Program-made: the position numbers and the translations under genes
Shown here: piece after piece, positions 13,307-57,529 of the stretch
How the letters are laid out: the number at the start of each line of letters is the position of its first letter
How positions within the stretch are numbered: the first letter of the stretch is position 1
From: Campylobacterales bacterium
GTDB taxonomy: Bacteria; Campylobacterota; Campylobacteria; Campylobacterales; Sulfurimonadaceae
NCBI GenBank assembly: GCA_026390115.1
Contig: JAPLGO010000012.1
Span: 248,001 to 312,000, forward strand
Length of the DNA stretch: 64,000 nucleotides
Reading direction: 5' to 3'
The notes under the pieces: generated by a model
Database searches by the model: none
Seen by the model: the letters and a program-made list of their open reading frames with translations, nothing else
What the model was told of the DNA's origin: nothing

Positions 13307-15211
13307 ATGGAAGCACTACAAAAAATAAGTGAAGCAAGAAACAAAAAAATTAATAAAATAGAAGAGATTAAAAACTTAAAGAGTCCGCTGGAAGCTTTTG
13401 AAAAACTTCAAACATACGCAAAAAATGGGTATGACTCTATTCCAGATGAAGACAAGAAGTACTTTCTAAAATGTTTTGGAATATATGACAGACCTGCAAC
13501 TCCTGAACGTTTTATGATAAAACTTCGCATCCCTGGCGGTCATCTTAACGCCGAACAGGCAAGAGCAATCGGTGAGTGTGCCAGAGATTACGGTCAAGAT
13601 TATATAGATTTGACAACAAGAGCCCAATGTGAACTGAGATACCTTAGAATTGAGGATATGCCGACTCTTTTAAAACGACTCTCATCTGTTGGAATTGACG
13701 CATTCCAAACAGGCGTGGACAATTTTAGAAATATCTTAAATGACCCTTTGGATGCATTGGCATTTGACAATGTTTTGCCGTCTCAGCCGCTTCTTTTAAA
13801 ACTTCAGAAGATGTTTTTGTACTCTCCTGAATGGATTTCTGCACTTCCTAGAAAGTTTAATACGGCGATTACGGGTTCGCTCTCAAACAGATGCAACATT
13901 TATGGGCATGACTGCTCTTTTGTGTTGGCTCAAAAAGAGGGCGTTTACGGTTATAACATGTATTTAGGCGGAAAAGTCGGCACAATCGCAAAAAGTGCGG
14001 ATATATTTTTGAAAAATGAGGATGAAGTGTTAAAAGCCTTCTCCTCAATAGCAGATATATTTAAAAGATTCGGTTTCCGTGACAACAGAAATAAAAACAG
14101 ACTTTACTTTCTCATAGAGGCAGTGGGGATGAGCGAGATTTCGAGTGCCATCAGAGAAAATGCGGGAGTAGATTTTAGAACTGCGGGCGAGACCATGACA
14201 AAGATAGATTTTTATGACCCAGATCAGGGGAAAGTACAGCTTCGTGACGGCTCATTCGCTGTGCATGTGGTTATTCCTTCGGGCGTATTCACCGGTTCTG
14301 CTATGATTGAAGCGGCAAATCTGAGTGAGAGTTACGGAAATAAAGAGATACGTTTTGACATGGAACAGAGTCTTTACCTTTTGGGTGTTAAAGATGTTGA
14401 GACACTTTTAAAAGAGAGTTTTTTTGAGCGATATAAGAGTGTAAACACTCCCTATTTTAACCACCTCATAGCATGTGCGGGAACAGCGCATTGCCCCTTT
14501 GGAGTGATTGAAAACAAAAATGATGCAATTGTTATGTCCACCTATTTGAGCGAAAAAGTAGCGTTAAAGTCCGGCAGAGTCCGAATGTACTGGTCTGCAT
14601 GCGTAAAAGGGTGCGGAATACATGGTTTGGGAGATGTCGGATTTGAGGGATGCAAGGCAAAAGTTGCCACAGAAACGGAAGATGGGGTTCACATCAGCCT
14701 CGGAGGAAAGCTTATAAGTGAAGGAGCCGATGGATATACGGTTGTAAAGTCCGCACCTCTTAGATATGCCAAATATTATGTTGAGACGCTTATGCTGGAG
14801 TATAAAAAACACAAGGGCATAAGTGAGAGTTTTGAGCAGTTCCATGATAGGGTTTTGGCACAATATACATCGGCAAATATCGGTTTTATAATGCAGCTTG
14901 GAGCCTATTTGAGAGAGAAAAATATAGATATTGAGTTTGGATTTCAAGCTGATACCAAAACAGGAAAAAATGAGGAGTTTGAAGTCTTCGAGTTGGGCAG
15001 AAAACTTTATGCAAAATTGACGAAAAAAGAGGCATATTCCGCTTATGACAGATTTACAAATGTATTAAAAAACGAAAAGTTAGAGAATGTAAGAGACTTA
15101 ATTCCACATGCAGATGGAAATTTGGCGCAGATGTGCGAAAAAATCTTGGATACAAAAGAGGAGAGCAGAGCTGTTGTTTTTTCTGAATTAATACCTTTTA
15201 TAAGTTTGTAA
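13307..15211 (+). CDS. nirA: Ferredoxin-nitrite reductase (siroheme/4Fe-4S)
   Basis: A 634-residue soluble enzyme reducing nitrite to ammonium with six electrons from ferredoxin. It shows the duplicated nitrite/sulfite reductase layout: ferredoxin-like half domains (RIPGGHLNAEQARAIGECA near 75) and siroheme domains. Cluster/siroheme ligands are Cys390 and Cys396 (CAGTAHC) and Cys432 and Cys436 (CVKGC), the expected CX5C...CX3C pattern. It is somewhat longer than typical NirA (roughly 500-580 residues), with about 70 extra C-terminal residues rich in charged helices. A sulfite reductase is the main alternative; the adjacent divergent nitrate transporter and the nearby nitrate reductase favour nitrite. 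A structured repeat element begins 43 bp after the stop. Confidence 0.9.
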   Translation: MEALQKISEARNKKINKIEEIKNLKSPLEAFEKLQTYAKNGYDSIPDEDKKYFLKCFGIYDRPATPERFMIKLRIPGGHLNAEQARAIGECARDYGQDYIDLTTRAQCELRYLRIEDMPTLLKRLSSVGIDAFQTGVDNFRNILNDPLDALAFDNVLPSQPLLLKLQKMFLYSPEWISALPRKFNTAITGSLSNRCNIYGHDCSFVLAQKEGVYGYNMYLGGKVGTIAKSADIFLKNEDEVLKAFSSIADIFKRFGFRDNRNKNRLYFLIEAVGMSEISSAIRENAGVDFRTAGETMTKIDFYDPDQGKVQLRDGSFAVHVVIPSGVFTGSAMIEAANLSESYGNKEIRFDMEQSLYLLGVKDVETLLKESFFERYKSVNTPYFNHLIACAGTAHCPFGVIENKNDAIVMSTYLSEKVALKSGRVRMYWSACVKGCGIHGLGDVGFEGCKAKVATETEDGVHISLGGKLISEGADGYTVVKSAPLRYAKYYVETLMLEYKKHKGISESFEQFHDRVLAQYTSANIGFIMQLGAYLREKNIDIEFGFQADTKTGKNEEFEVFELGRKLYAKLTKKEAYSAYDRFTNVLKNEKLENVRDLIPHADGNLAQMCEKILDTKEESRAVVFSELIPFISL

Positions 15212-15254
15212 AAGGTATTAATTGATCAGCAAAAATTAAACACCTTGAAATTCT

Positions 15255-15346
15255 CGAAAAACAAAGTTTTTCGTAGCTTTAGGGGGTTGTAGGGACATTT
15301 GTCCCTGCCACTAAAACGGACGAGTTCGTTTTAGTGCGTAACATCA
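15255..15346 (+). repeat. Structured repeat element, copy A (three hairpins)
   Basis: Hairpin 1: CGAAAAAC/GTTTTTCG at 15255-15273. A conserved GTAGCTTTAGGGGGTT stretch follows. Hairpin 2: AGGGACA/TGTCCCT, perfect 7-bp stem. Hairpin 3: CACTAAAACG/CGTTTTAGTG, perfect 10-bp stem. It ends in GCGTAACATCA. The 74-nt core from 15273 matches 55326-55399 with eight substitutions, four of which are two compensated base pairs in hairpin 3. It lies between the converging nirA and dnaJ genes. Confidence 0.85.
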
Positions 15347-15347
15347 A

Positions 15348-16472
15348 CTATTTAAACCAGCTCTTCATCTTATCGATTGCTGAGTCTAAAATTCCTTCAT
15401 GCGGCTTTGACTCCTCTATGCCGAAAGAGTCTTGCAGCTCCTTTAAAAGAGCTTTTTGTTTATCGTTTAGCTTCTTAGGATAGGTGATGTTTACCTGTGC
15501 GACAAGGTCGCCTTTTCCATGTCCGTGAACATCGGCTATTCCTTCGCCTCTGAAAGTGAAGTGCTGCTTATCTTTTGTCCCGATGTCAAGTTTTAAATCG
15601 AGCTCCCCTGTGAGTGATGGGATTTTAAAACTCTCGCCTGCAACGGCCTGAGTAAAAAACACAGGGATTTCTATGTAAACATCATTGCCGTTTCTGATAA
15701 AGTGCTTGTCGGCTTTGACCGTAAATGTGACATATAAATCTCCTCGAGTTCCTCTTTTACCAATGTTTCCTTTGCCTGAAACTCTTAGACGGTTATCAGA
15801 ATCTATACCTGCAGGAATTTTGATAGTAACTTTTTCTTTTACCTCTTTGAATCCGGCACCCTTACAGCTTGTGCAAGCCTCAGCCGCAGAGCTTCCAACT
15901 CCGTTACATACCGGACAAGTTTGAGAAAATGTCATAAAGCCTTGTTTCATGTAAACCTGACCCTGACCGCCACATTGCTTACAAGTAGCAAGTTTGCCAT
16001 CTTTTGCACCTGTGCCTTTACAGTCTGTACAAGCATTTTTATAGGAGAACTCTATCTCTTTTTCACACCCGAAGACGGCTTCATGGAAGCTGATTTGCAT
16101 GTTTATATTCATATCAAGAGAATATTTTTCCATATCTGCAGGATTCTGGCGGCTTCTGCTTCTGCCTCCGCCAAAACCGCTAAACATCTCCTCAAACATA
16201 GAACCTAAATCATCAAATCCGCCGGATGAGCGGCTAGAACCTCTGCCTTGAAGACCCTCTTTACCGTAACGGTCGTAAATACCTCTTTGCTTGTCATCGC
16301 TTAGGCACTGGTAAGCTTCGTTACACAATTTAAATTTGTGTTCAGCATCGGAATCACCCGCATTTTTGTCTGGGTGATACTTTTTTGCCATCTCTCTGTA
16401 CGCTTTTTTTATCGTCGCTTTGTCTGCAGTTTGCGTTACTTCTAATATTTCATAATAACTTAAATTTTCCAT
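15348..16472 (-). CDS. dnaJ: DnaJ-type co-chaperone (type I Hsp40)
   Basis: A 374-residue cytoplasmic chaperone that stimulates DnaK ATPase activity and delivers unfolded clients. The J-domain (about 4-70) has the HPD triad in KKYHPDKNAG. A Gly/Ser/Phe-rich linker (about 75-115) precedes a zinc-binding domain with four CXXCXGXG repeats (CTDCKGTG, CKQCGGQG, CPVCNGVG, CTSCKGAG). The C-terminal client-binding domains follow. All parts of a full-length DnaJ are present. ATG 16472 follows AGGAC. No grpE or dnaK is adjacent. The structured repeat ends immediately beyond its stop codon. Confidence 0.95.
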   Translation of the reverse strand: MENLSYYEILEVTQTADKATIKKAYREMAKKYHPDKNAGDSDAEHKFKLCNEAYQCLSDDKQRGIYDRYGKEGLQGRGSSRSSGGFDDLGSMFEEMFSGFGGGRSRSRQNPADMEKYSLDMNINMQISFHEAVFGCEKEIEFSYKNACTDCKGTGAKDGKLATCKQCGGQGQVYMKQGFMTFSQTCPVCNGVGSSAAEACTSCKGAGFKEVKEKVTIKIPAGIDSDNRLRVSGKGNIGKRGTRGDLYVTFTVKADKHFIRNGNDVYIEIPVFFTQAVAGESFKIPSLTGELDLKLDIGTKDKQHFTFRGEGIADVHGHGKGDLVAQVNITYPKKLNDKQKALLKELQDSFGIEESKPHEGILDSAIDKMKSWFK

Positions 16473-54619: not shown

Positions 54620-54681
54620 AAATGCCGATACTTGCAGTTCACAATATTTATTAATAATTTGTAATGCAGCATGGAGACGAA

Positions 54682-55269
54682 ATGAAAAAGATGTTTTTAG
54701 CAGTTTTTGCAGCGGTATTATTGCAAGTCACTGTTCATGGAAGTAATTATATTGCGGTGGGCAATGTCTCTTCCGCGGATAGCGCAGAGGTTATAAATCA
54801 GCTTGTAAGTAGTATGTCAGACCAATTGACGCAGAACAAAAATTTCAGTGATATTCAATCCGCAGCCATAGCCATAACCTCTTTTGTATGTTTAGATGAT
54901 TTTAAAGCTACCTCCCGTCTTAGTAATATACTAAGCGAGACTTTTATTCATGAGATGCAGATACGAGGGTATAAGGTAATAGATTTTAAGACAATGAGCA
55001 ATATTAAAATTGATTCTCAAGGAGATTTTCTTTTTAGTCGTGACATATCAAAACTACAAACTAGTTTAAATGTCAATTATGCCTTAGCCGGTACATACAT
55101 AGAGTATAAGAGCGGTATTATTATAAATGCGAGAATAATCGATTTAAAAACTCATATAGTGCTCTCTACCGCCCAAGTATTTATACCTAGACGCATTGTT
55201 AATCGCATATCTTCTGCTGGAAATACAATGGTAGATTTTGCACCACATAAAGTTTTAGTATCGAAATAA
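54682..55269 (+). CDS. FlgO-domain exported protein
   Basis: A 195-residue protein with a signal peptide (FLAVFAAVLLQVTVHGS). The mature part matches the FlgO fold: IAITSFVCLDDFKATSRLSNILSE, then ETFIHEMQIRGYKVIDF and NYALAGTYIEYKSGIIINARII. In Vibrio FlgO is an outer-membrane flagellar factor, but no flagellar genes are adjacent here, so a general envelope role is as likely. ATG 54682 with GGAGA upstream is preferred over ATG 54664. Cysteine 55 in SFVCL is not in a lipobox. Confidence 0.8.
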   Translation: MKKMFLAVFAAVLLQVTVHGSNYIAVGNVSSADSAEVINQLVSSMSDQLTQNKNFSDIQSAAIAITSFVCLDDFKATSRLSNILSETFIHEMQIRGYKVIDFKTMSNIKIDSQGDFLFSRDISKLQTSLNVNYALAGTYIEYKSGIIINARIIDLKTHIVLSTAQVFIPRRIVNRISSAGNTMVDFAPHKVLVSK

Positions 55270-55305: not shown

Positions 55306-55399
55306 CCCATATCCAAAAGATATGGGTAGCTTTAGGGGGTTGTAGGGACATTTGTACCTGTCACCTAAACGGACGCGTTCGTTTAGGTGCGTAGCATCA
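55306..55399 (+). repeat. Structured repeat element, copy B (three hairpins)
   Basis: Hairpin 1: CCCATATC/GATATGGG (55306-55326), unrelated in sequence to copy A's first hairpin but ending on the same shared G. The GTAGCTTTAGGGGGTT stretch is identical to copy A. Hairpin 2: AGGGACA/TGTACCT, one mismatch. Hairpin 3: CACCTAAACG/CGTTTAGGTG, perfect. It ends in GCGTAGCATCA and directly precedes the uvrD promoter. Confidence 0.85.
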
Positions 55400-55411
55400 G
55401 ATGGTAGCGGG

Positions 55412-55450: not shown

Positions 55451-57529
55451 TTGCCACTATCCCGTCTTAACCCAGAACAGTTTGCTGCTGCAACTTCTGC
55501 AAGCTTGCAAAATTTAATTATTGCCTCGGCAGGAACAGGAAAAACATCTACGATAGTCGGGAGAATAGGGCATCTTCTGGCTTCAGGTGTGCAACCGCAG
55601 GAGATTCTGCTACTTACTTTTACAAACAAAGCAGCGGCGGAGATGGTCGAGAGGGTTGCTGAATATTTTGGCAAAGAGATAGCTGCAAAAATAGATGCCG
55701 GAACCTTTCATGCGGTGAGTTACAGATGGCTCAAAAAACATGATAAAAAGGTGGTTTTAAAACAGCAAAGAGAGCTGAAAACACTCTTTAGAAGTGTTTT
55801 TGAAAAACGCTCATTTATGCAGATAGAAGCCGAAATAACCCCCTATGGCGGCAACTACCTCTACGATGTTTACTCTTTTTACCAAAATACCGAACTCAAT
55901 AATAATTTTGAAGAGTGGATAAAAGAGAAGTATCCTGAACATGAGCTTTTTGCCATGATTTATGCCGACATTGTAGATGAGTTTGAGAGCCTTAAAAAAG
56001 AGTACGGATTTGTAAATTTCAACGATTTGCTCATCAATTTTCGAGAGATGTGCAAAAGCAATGATTTGGGCTACAAAGAAGTTTTGGTGGACGAGTACCA
56101 AGATACAAACGCGCTTCAAGGCACACTTATAGAGGCGATGAAACCCCCTTCGCTCTTTTGCGTGGGAGATTACGATCAGAGCATTTACGCTTTCAACGGG
56201 GCGGATATTTCTATTATCGGTTCATTTGCTACAAAGTTTCCCGAAGCAAAAGTGCACACGCTTACCAAAAATTACCGCTCAACTCAGCTGATACTCTCAC
56301 TTGCAACAAAAGTAATCGAGCATAACGAGAGAATCTATCCGAAACAGTTGGAAGTGACAAGAGTGCATAGCTCACAACCGCCAAAACTTCTTGCTTATGA
56401 TGAGCTTTTTGACCAGTACCATGCAATGGCGGCACAAATCCGTGATTCGCAAACTCCAAAAGAGGAGATTGCCGTTATTTTTAGAAATAACTCTTCGGCG
56501 GACGGTATCGAGGTGGGTCTAAGAGAACTTGGTATCGCCTGCAAAAGAAAAGGCGGGACGAGCTTTTTCGATTCAAAAGAGGTCAAAGCGGTACTCGATT
56601 TATACACTTTGCTTGTCAATGAGTCGGACATGATGGCATTTATTCACCTTTTTGAGTTTGCAAAAGGGATAGGAAGTGCTATGGCAAAAGAGATGTACAG
56701 TGCGCTAAAAATTTTAGGACATGGTTCTATTTTTTACGGCTTATATGCACCTGATGTTTCTATTAATAACCCATTTGAAAAAAGAAAAGTGAGCCATCAA
56801 TTGGGGCTTTTTGATGATTTTTTGGAGCTAGGAGCAGTCGGCAAATTTGCAAAGCTAGGATTTGAAGATAAGTTTATGCAGAATCCGATTTTAAAACACC
56901 CAAAGCTCACAAAAGACGGGGCAACTTTTTTGCATGATTTTTACATGCTCTATCGTGACTTAAAAGGGATAAAACAGCCCAGAACAATAGTAAATAAGAT
57001 AGCTGCCTCCTCTTTATACAAGCATATTTCAGATGTTCTCTCTACTAAAAGAGCGACCCTCAAAGACGGTTCAATAGATGAAAAACAGCAGACAGAATCA
57101 TTAAGCAGAATAGCCAGAAAAATGATACTTTTGGAAGAGCTATCAAAACCATATTCCGAACATGAGCGGTTTTTAAATGCCATGATTTTAGGCTCATCCG
57201 ACCTAACACAAGGCGAAGGGGTAAACCTCCTAAGTGTTCATGCCTCCAAAGGTCTGGAGTACAAAGAAGTTTTTGTAGTGGATTTGATGGACGGAAGATT
57301 TCCCAACCGCAAACTCATGCAAAGAGGCGGTTCACTCGATGAGGAGCGACGACTCTTTTATGTAGCAGTCACAAGAGCCAAAGATATTCTGTACCTAAGC
57401 TATGCTAAATATGACAAGATAAAAAAGACAAATTTTGTCGCTTCACAGTTTTTATATGAGGCAGGGCTTGTACCAAAAGATGAAGTTTACAGAGGGTTGG
57501 TTATGAAAGGGGAAGAGAAGGAAGAGTGA
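55451..57529 (+). CDS. UvrD/Rep-family DNA helicase (superfamily 1)
   Basis: A 692-residue 3'-5' helicase. Motifs in order: GTGKTSTIVGR (I), LTFTNKAAAEM (Ia), VLVDEYQDTNALQ (II), GDYDQSIYAFNGAD (III), LTKNYRST (IV), LSVHASKGLEYKEVFV (V) and VAVTRAKDILYLSY (VI). It is near Rep length, so PcrA, UvrD or Rep functions in repair or fork restart are possible. TTG 55451 is selected because AGGAG sits eight bases upstream and homologues begin near LNPEQFAA; a longer frame reaching 55352 would run through the promoter and the structured repeat. Confidence 0.9.
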   Translation: MPLSRLNPEQFAAATSASLQNLIIASAGTGKTSTIVGRIGHLLASGVQPQEILLLTFTNKAAAEMVERVAEYFGKEIAAKIDAGTFHAVSYRWLKKHDKKVVLKQQRELKTLFRSVFEKRSFMQIEAEITPYGGNYLYDVYSFYQNTELNNNFEEWIKEKYPEHELFAMIYADIVDEFESLKKEYGFVNFNDLLINFREMCKSNDLGYKEVLVDEYQDTNALQGTLIEAMKPPSLFCVGDYDQSIYAFNGADISIIGSFATKFPEAKVHTLTKNYRSTQLILSLATKVIEHNERIYPKQLEVTRVHSSQPPKLLAYDELFDQYHAMAAQIRDSQTPKEEIAVIFRNNSSADGIEVGLRELGIACKRKGGTSFFDSKEVKAVLDLYTLLVNESDMMAFIHLFEFAKGIGSAMAKEMYSALKILGHGSIFYGLYAPDVSINNPFEKRKVSHQLGLFDDFLELGAVGKFAKLGFEDKFMQNPILKHPKLTKDGATFLHDFYMLYRDLKGIKQPRTIVNKIAASSLYKHISDVLSTKRATLKDGSIDEKQQTESLSRIARKMILLEELSKPYSEHERFLNAMILGSSDLTQGEGVNLLSVHASKGLEYKEVFVVDLMDGRFPNRKLMQRGGSLDEERRLFYVAVTRAKDILYLSYAKYDKIKKTNFVASQFLYEAGLVPKDEVYRGLVMKGEEKEE

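Follow-up and report, generated by a model that had tools for sequence, protein, structure and literature searches.

Relation to described repeats

In the usual view of MITEs, the two ends matter and the sequence between them is disposable. Those described in bacteria, such as QMITE2 of Coxiella and the Correia elements, are short, carry no gene, have terminal inverted repeats, lie at AT-rich intergenic sites and are flanked by direct repeats of 7-9 bp, and MITEs with folded transcripts are already known (PMC10969869). The REP or GTAG repeats, which go with RAYT transposases, are high-copy intergenic palindromes with the tetranucleotide GTAG at one end, beside a hairpin (PMC3733652). Hairpins also occur in rRNA leaders, and in Enterobacteriaceae those between the leader-trailer helix and the 16S rRNA are dispensable and variable (PMC10250234).

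The repeat family described here resembles the bacterial MITEs in each of the features named, with a folded transcript as the probable form of its interior. It differs from them in that the interior is the best conserved part, covaries across genera and stays conserved after insertion. A MITE with family-wide covariation of its interior and selection in place is unusual, and the papers searched contained no report of this hairpin-core repeat family. On balance, we consider the repeat to be a MITE that is probably moved in trans by an IS701-type transposase and whose folded + strand core, most likely an RNA and possibly one resembling part of an rRNA leader, is under purifying selection. As the interior is best conserved, the element appears to carry a functional folded module to new sites as it spreads; the copies define an undescribed RNA-like family in sulfur-oxidising bacteria.

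Copies A and B in the window

Two copies were present in the window, i.e. the whole analysed stretch of 64,000 nucleotides, at the positions given for them by an earlier sequence-only reading. A 20-nt core pattern with up to three mismatches matched twice in the window and never in shuffled sequence.

Copy A could be traced, by comparison with the alignment of full copies, from 15222 to 15347 on the + strand. A decayed left end and hairpin 0 (15222-15254) are followed by hairpins 1 to 3, which were assigned from sequence, covariation and folding, and by the right end. Hairpin 1 (CGAAAAAC AAA GTTTTTCG) spans 15255-15273 and is followed by a linker, TAGCTTTAGGGGGTT (15274-15288), which is nearly invariant by column conservation. 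Hairpin 2 (GTAGGGACA TT TGTCCCTGC) lies at 15289-15308, with its GTAG forming the stem base, and hairpin 3 (CACTAAAACGGAC GA GTTCGTTTTAGTG), which contains a conserved G.U pair, at 15309-15336. End alignment placed the right terminal inverted repeat at 15334-15347, reading TTGATGTTACGCAC on the - strand. The copy lies between a nitrite/sulphite reductase-like gene (NIR_SIR; 13307-15211, + strand) and the convergent dnaJ gene (15348-16472, - strand), the stop codon of which is at the end of the element. A candidate 7-bp target duplication (GTATTAA at 15215-15221, CTATTTA at 15348-15354) agrees at 5/7 positions, a weak match that is reached or exceeded by about 21% of controls.

Copy B (55306-55400, + strand), matched by the covariance model in the genome at G000:C18:303300-303399, comprises hairpins 1 to 3 and the right end, the left end and hairpin 0 having been lost. 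Sequence and folding gave hairpin 1 (CCCATATC CAAAA GATATGGG) at 55306-55326, hairpin 2 at 55342-55361 and hairpin 3 (CACCTAAACGGAC GC GTTCGTTTAGGTG) at 55362-55389, all on the + strand; the right terminal inverted repeat, located by end alignment at 55387-55400, reads CTGATGCTACGCAC on the - strand. Copy B is preceded by a gene for a FlgO-domain protein (54664-55269, + strand) and followed by one for a UvrD-type helicase (55451-57529, + strand). The listed open reading frame of the helicase opens inside the element; we read its start as the TTG at 55451, behind a ribosome-binding site.

The 74-nt cores of the two copies differed, as had been claimed, at exactly eight positions, four of which form two compensated pairs in the last stem. 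The description of the middle hairpin as AGGGACA/TGTCCCT held for copy A; in copy B one arm reads TGTACCT and one pair is broken (G55347 x A55356). The first hairpin, which the sequence-only reading had not discussed, is wholly different in the two copies (CGAAAAAC/GTTTTTCG versus CCCATATC/GATATGGG) and is fully paired in both despite this. RNA folding z-scores on the + strand were -4.7 for copy A and -2.5 for copy B.

Copy number and spread

The covariance-model search of the genome and its relatives that had been proposed as a check bore out a dispersed repeat. A BLASTN search with copy A gave more than 30 locations in the genome of origin, and a covariance model (R1) built from 11 copies found about 40 loci there at E <1e-3, leaving out opposite-strand echoes of the same palindromes. 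Of 151 genomes sampled from the bacterial family of the source, 98 contained the repeat according to the covariance model, covering 10 of 18 genera. Both Sulfuricurvum and the genus of the window, which judging by this family is probably Sulfurimonas, belong to the family. Each carrying genome had from 1 to at least 27 copies in the family-wide search; full scoring of one incomplete genome of 1.6 Mb gave 84. One copy was located on a plasmid, the coordinates of the plasmid copy of G062 being those of the match in Sulfuricurvum kujiense NC_014754.1. Viral contigs and phages were also searched for the repeat, without a match, and a phage or plasmid as its vehicle was rejected.

In relatives, several copies (L129, L137, L124/L127, L126, L132) were seen inside core operons or beside core genes, namely groES-groEL, grpE-dnaK, nhaD-guaA, rplA-rplJ and hydrogenase genes, the gene names being read from translations. 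Natural single copies such as those at nhaD-guaA, lepA-comF, groES-groEL and grpE-dnaK would lend themselves to expression tests.

Ends, target duplication and parent element

The alignment of full copies showed an element of about 142 bp with 14-bp inverted repeats, four hairpins and a 7-bp target duplication. The ends read CTGACCTTACGCAC on the left and CTGATGTTACGCAC (reverse complement) on the right, 12 of the 14 positions being alike. A left end was recognisable in 51 of 161 copies. When the left and right flanks of these 51 were compared at lengths of 2-12, one main peak was obtained, at 7 bp (69% matching versus 48%, z = 9.6), and 16 of the 51 had a perfect 7-bp duplication, against 0.8% expected. 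Examples are TTATTTA (L168), TTAGTTA (L169), GAAGTAA (L203) and TGAGTAA (L193).

The genus was then searched for the same end in other contexts. This yielded core-less palindromic elements of 43 bp (L240, L245, also L259), a 266-bp MITE, also core-less, that shares these ends and has TTATTAA perfectly duplicated (L244, G146:C107:101758-102023), and the ends of an insertion sequence (L243, L265). A frameshifted transposase (L269), reached via the N-terminus of the insertion sequence, is flanked by CTGACCTTACGGAC...GGTGTGTAAGGTCAG and by TTATTAA/TTATTAT. It matched NCBIfam IS701_2 (NF049921) and Pfam DDE_5, the truncated fragment scoring 229.8 and thus below the NCBIfam cut-off of 250; the full-length relative L275 scored 345. 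L269 was the one case in which an IS701-type transposase was found within the same ends; further parent candidates with these ends are L243/L268, L265 and L274, an internally deleted IS701-type relic in the genome of origin with TTAATAA on both sides.

The repeat is thus short, non-coding and multicopy, with terminal inverted repeats, a duplication of fixed length and a parent transposon sharing its ends. Since the repeat shares its ends and duplication with a DDE insertion sequence, it is a MITE of an IS701-type element, and its mobility as a MITE is well supported by these sequence comparisons. It would be a non-autonomous DDE-type element of about 142 bp, moved in trans through its 14-bp ends, each insertion leaving a 7-bp target duplication. 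The 14-bp ends and 7-bp duplication are shared with the IS701-type elements L269 and L274 and with the 266-bp element L244; the MITE differs from the insertion sequence in having no transposase and in containing the hairpin core, absent from the insertion sequence. The target duplications of described IS701 elements are shorter, at 4-5 bp.

These results also bear on the route suggested by the sequence-only reading, i.e. a REP-type repeat that is moved as single-stranded DNA by a TnpA-REP (RAYT) tyrosine transposase. Like REP/GTAG repeats, the family consists of high-copy intergenic palindromes with GTAG beside a hairpin; proteins with a Y1_Tnp domain were present in roughly half of the relatives, and in the genome of origin one copy has a broken Y1 fragment at a distance of 1.5 kb. 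It differs from REP/GTAG repeats in its inverted repeats, its 7-bp duplication, its three to four hairpins and the absence of an association with RAYT proteins; moreover, the GTAG of hairpin 2 is paired at the stem base and so is no free tag, and the same ends are carried by a DDE insertion sequence. Around 30 Y1 loci of relatives no convincing element was found, the hits in 32 loci being one truncated copy beside a broken fragment and two weak matches, and a check for REP-associated transposases showed that the near-complete genomes G081, G101 and G115 had 19-23 copies and no Y1_Tnp match. The link to RAYT/Y1 proteins was rejected on the grounds of unflanked Y1 loci and copy-rich genomes without Y1, and we regard this route as highly improbable. 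An IS200/IS605-like replication-strand bias was likewise rejected: G062 alone was suggestive (p = 0.05), and the pooled count was 26/45 (p = 0.37) with origins assumed.

Apart from one Y1 fragment, the genome of origin contained one Y1 protein (L031 1447-2859, C38), with an apparently degenerate HUH motif (NYFEF) and fused to a SapC domain. Open frames of about 460-480 aa were found in G064, G093, G135, G137, G143, G144 and others; the recurrence of frames of similar length suggests a domesticated transposase domain.

Folding and covariation of the core

Across 101 copies taken from many genomes, pairing was seen in 98.1% of base-pair cells, and 23 of the 29 base pairs showed compensatory changes on both sides. 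Such changes amounted to 421 cells, compared with 88 in shuffles, and none of 500 shuffles reached the observed value; covariation collapsed in every control with a slid alignment. Hairpin 1 occurred as CGAAAAAC/GTTTTTCG, CCCGTATC/GATACGGG, CCGGCAT/ATGCCGG and CACAAAGC/GCTTTGTG, among other forms. The most conserved parts of the element are its unpaired linker and loops. A full copy is predicted to fold into a cloverleaf closed by the two ends (z = -6.3). Within the ends, the element carries four hairpins (H0-H3) and the nearly invariant linker TAGCTTTAGGGG.

On the + strand, G.U pairs outnumbered A.C mismatches by 191:15, and by 45:13 (p = 3e-5) when two near-fixed, mostly wobble pairs were removed, counts that lean slightly the same way by virtue of an alignment fitted to a + strand model. 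The excess of G.U over A.C indicates that the + strand is the folded strand; it would also be the functional one, most likely as RNA. No family in Rfam was found above its gathering score, and no supporting feature was seen for a likeness to integron attC sites or to tracrRNA.

Findings that would count against a dispersed repeat under selection, i.e. two copies only, no covariation or a described RNA family, were replaced by about 40 copies, massive covariation and the lack of an Rfam match. The copy number, the covariation and the conservation at orthologous sites (below) all support the proposal of a mobile repeat whose folded nucleic acid is under selection, and suggest that what the repeat spreads is a functional structured RNA, or single-stranded DNA, and not itself alone.

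Conservation of settled copies

Homologous flanks on both sides were seen for 38 pairs of the fetched copies, and the 36 of these that differed and had enough flanking codons were compared. The element was 94% identical, compared with 65% at third and 92% at first and second codon positions of the neighbouring genes, and exceeded third-position identity in 36/36 pairs; since pairs were found via the model, decayed copies were missed and are under-represented. At a site between lepA and a comF-like gene (names read from translations), a copy was common to five Sulfuricurvum-group genomes; its identity was 95-100%, that of third codon positions 60-75%. As each of these five genomes has only 1-4 matches, gene conversion can hardly account for this. 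In the pair L195/L215, compensatory change had occurred in place in hairpins 1 and 3, and copies antisense to both neighbours were conserved too. Purifying selection would maintain the core after insertion, also in copies with a decayed left end.

A plain selfish MITE with a functionless core could in principle give a similar picture, if covariation arose through template-switch repair of imperfect palindromes and similarity through recent spread. Recent activity was indeed evident in some genomes (e.g. the near-identical copies L160-L162), decayed copies were present in the genome of origin (e.g. L046, L059), and core-less MITEs with the same ends exist. Repair by template switching would, however, erase the conserved G.U pairs, and neither the strong conservation of unpaired linker and loops nor the identity of the orthologous low-copy insertions, far above that of third codon positions, fits this explanation, which we consider quite unlikely.

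Orientation and likeness to 16S rRNA leaders

Relative to neighbouring genes, 49 copies were in sense and 67 in antisense orientation (p = 0.11), i.e. there was no bias, and copies lay tight against stop codons or start regions, with median right gaps of 1 and 20 nt. Such an unbiased orientation speaks against an mRNA signal acting purely in sense, barring independent transcription of the + strand, and is odd for an RNA without its own promoter; none was identified. The main rival to an RNA function is one at the DNA level, in which the core of the MITE, as a cruciform or as single-stranded hairpins, binds a protein of the nucleoid, of replication or of repair, irrespective of its orientation to genes. 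The lack of orientation bias and the conservation of antisense copies agree with this. One-sided wobble pairs would, on the other hand, be needless in a two-strand cruciform, a pooled replication-strand bias was absent (26/45, origins assumed), and the likeness to 16S leaders described below lies on the rRNA strand. A function as DNA is possible and, in our view, rather doubtful.

The RNA reading is favoured by that likeness. Weak matches of the model turned out to be 16S leaders in G129, G103 and G089 (39.7, 39.0 and 35.7 bits), and a further leader match (26.3 bits) came from G445, of another family, which had been found by the pattern TAGCTTTA with its two hairpins lying outside that pattern. 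All four genomes have a hairpin, TAGCTTTAG and a second hairpin, in that order, directly upstream of 16S on the rRNA strand. The leader differs from the core of the repeat in lacking hairpin 2 and the GGGG run and in not being bounded by inverted repeats. Counting the exact pattern only, the motif was present in leaders of 3 of 347 genomes of the class, plus G129; a scan of a collection of named genomes, in which an overly short gap was allowed, gave one chance-like match, and the weak model matches fetched from the genome of origin included no 16S leader. The hairpin with TAGCTTTAG might be read as a boxA/boxB antitermination signal; upstream of it, the rRNA leader also has a separate boxA-like GATCATTGAAAAC.

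Given this likeness and the dispensability of leader hairpins, an RNA that is handled like a segment of the rRNA leader is favoured, and an rRNA-leader-like RNA is our leading guess for the function of the core. The core may work like, or descend from, the hairpin-UAGCUUUAG-hairpin segment of the 16S leader, and both might be bound by the same RNA-processing or transcription factor. More speculatively, and with less confidence than for the MITE itself, the transposon family may carry a leader-like RNA that recruits a host RNA-processing or transcription-elongation factor at each site of insertion and is retained by its hosts as a regulatory element throughout the bacterial family.

Nested inserts and a composite copy

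In several copies, including some in another genus, a further hairpin insert of about 35-45 bp, of the form (CT)AAAGAAACAT-hairpin-ATTCTCTTGTTTT, was nested within hairpin 1, hairpin 3 or the linker. It was located in L005 (1436-1475), L012 (1465-1504), L019 (1571-1604), L024 (1465-1504), L227 (823-856) and L356 (about 1503-1540); a search of the window for this insert gave none. L005 (C9:36620-36854 of the genome of origin) is also a composite: it fuses a partial element with another, the junction being GTAGCTTTA|GTGCATAAACATCTT. The join lies in the linker, indicating that units can recombine within it.
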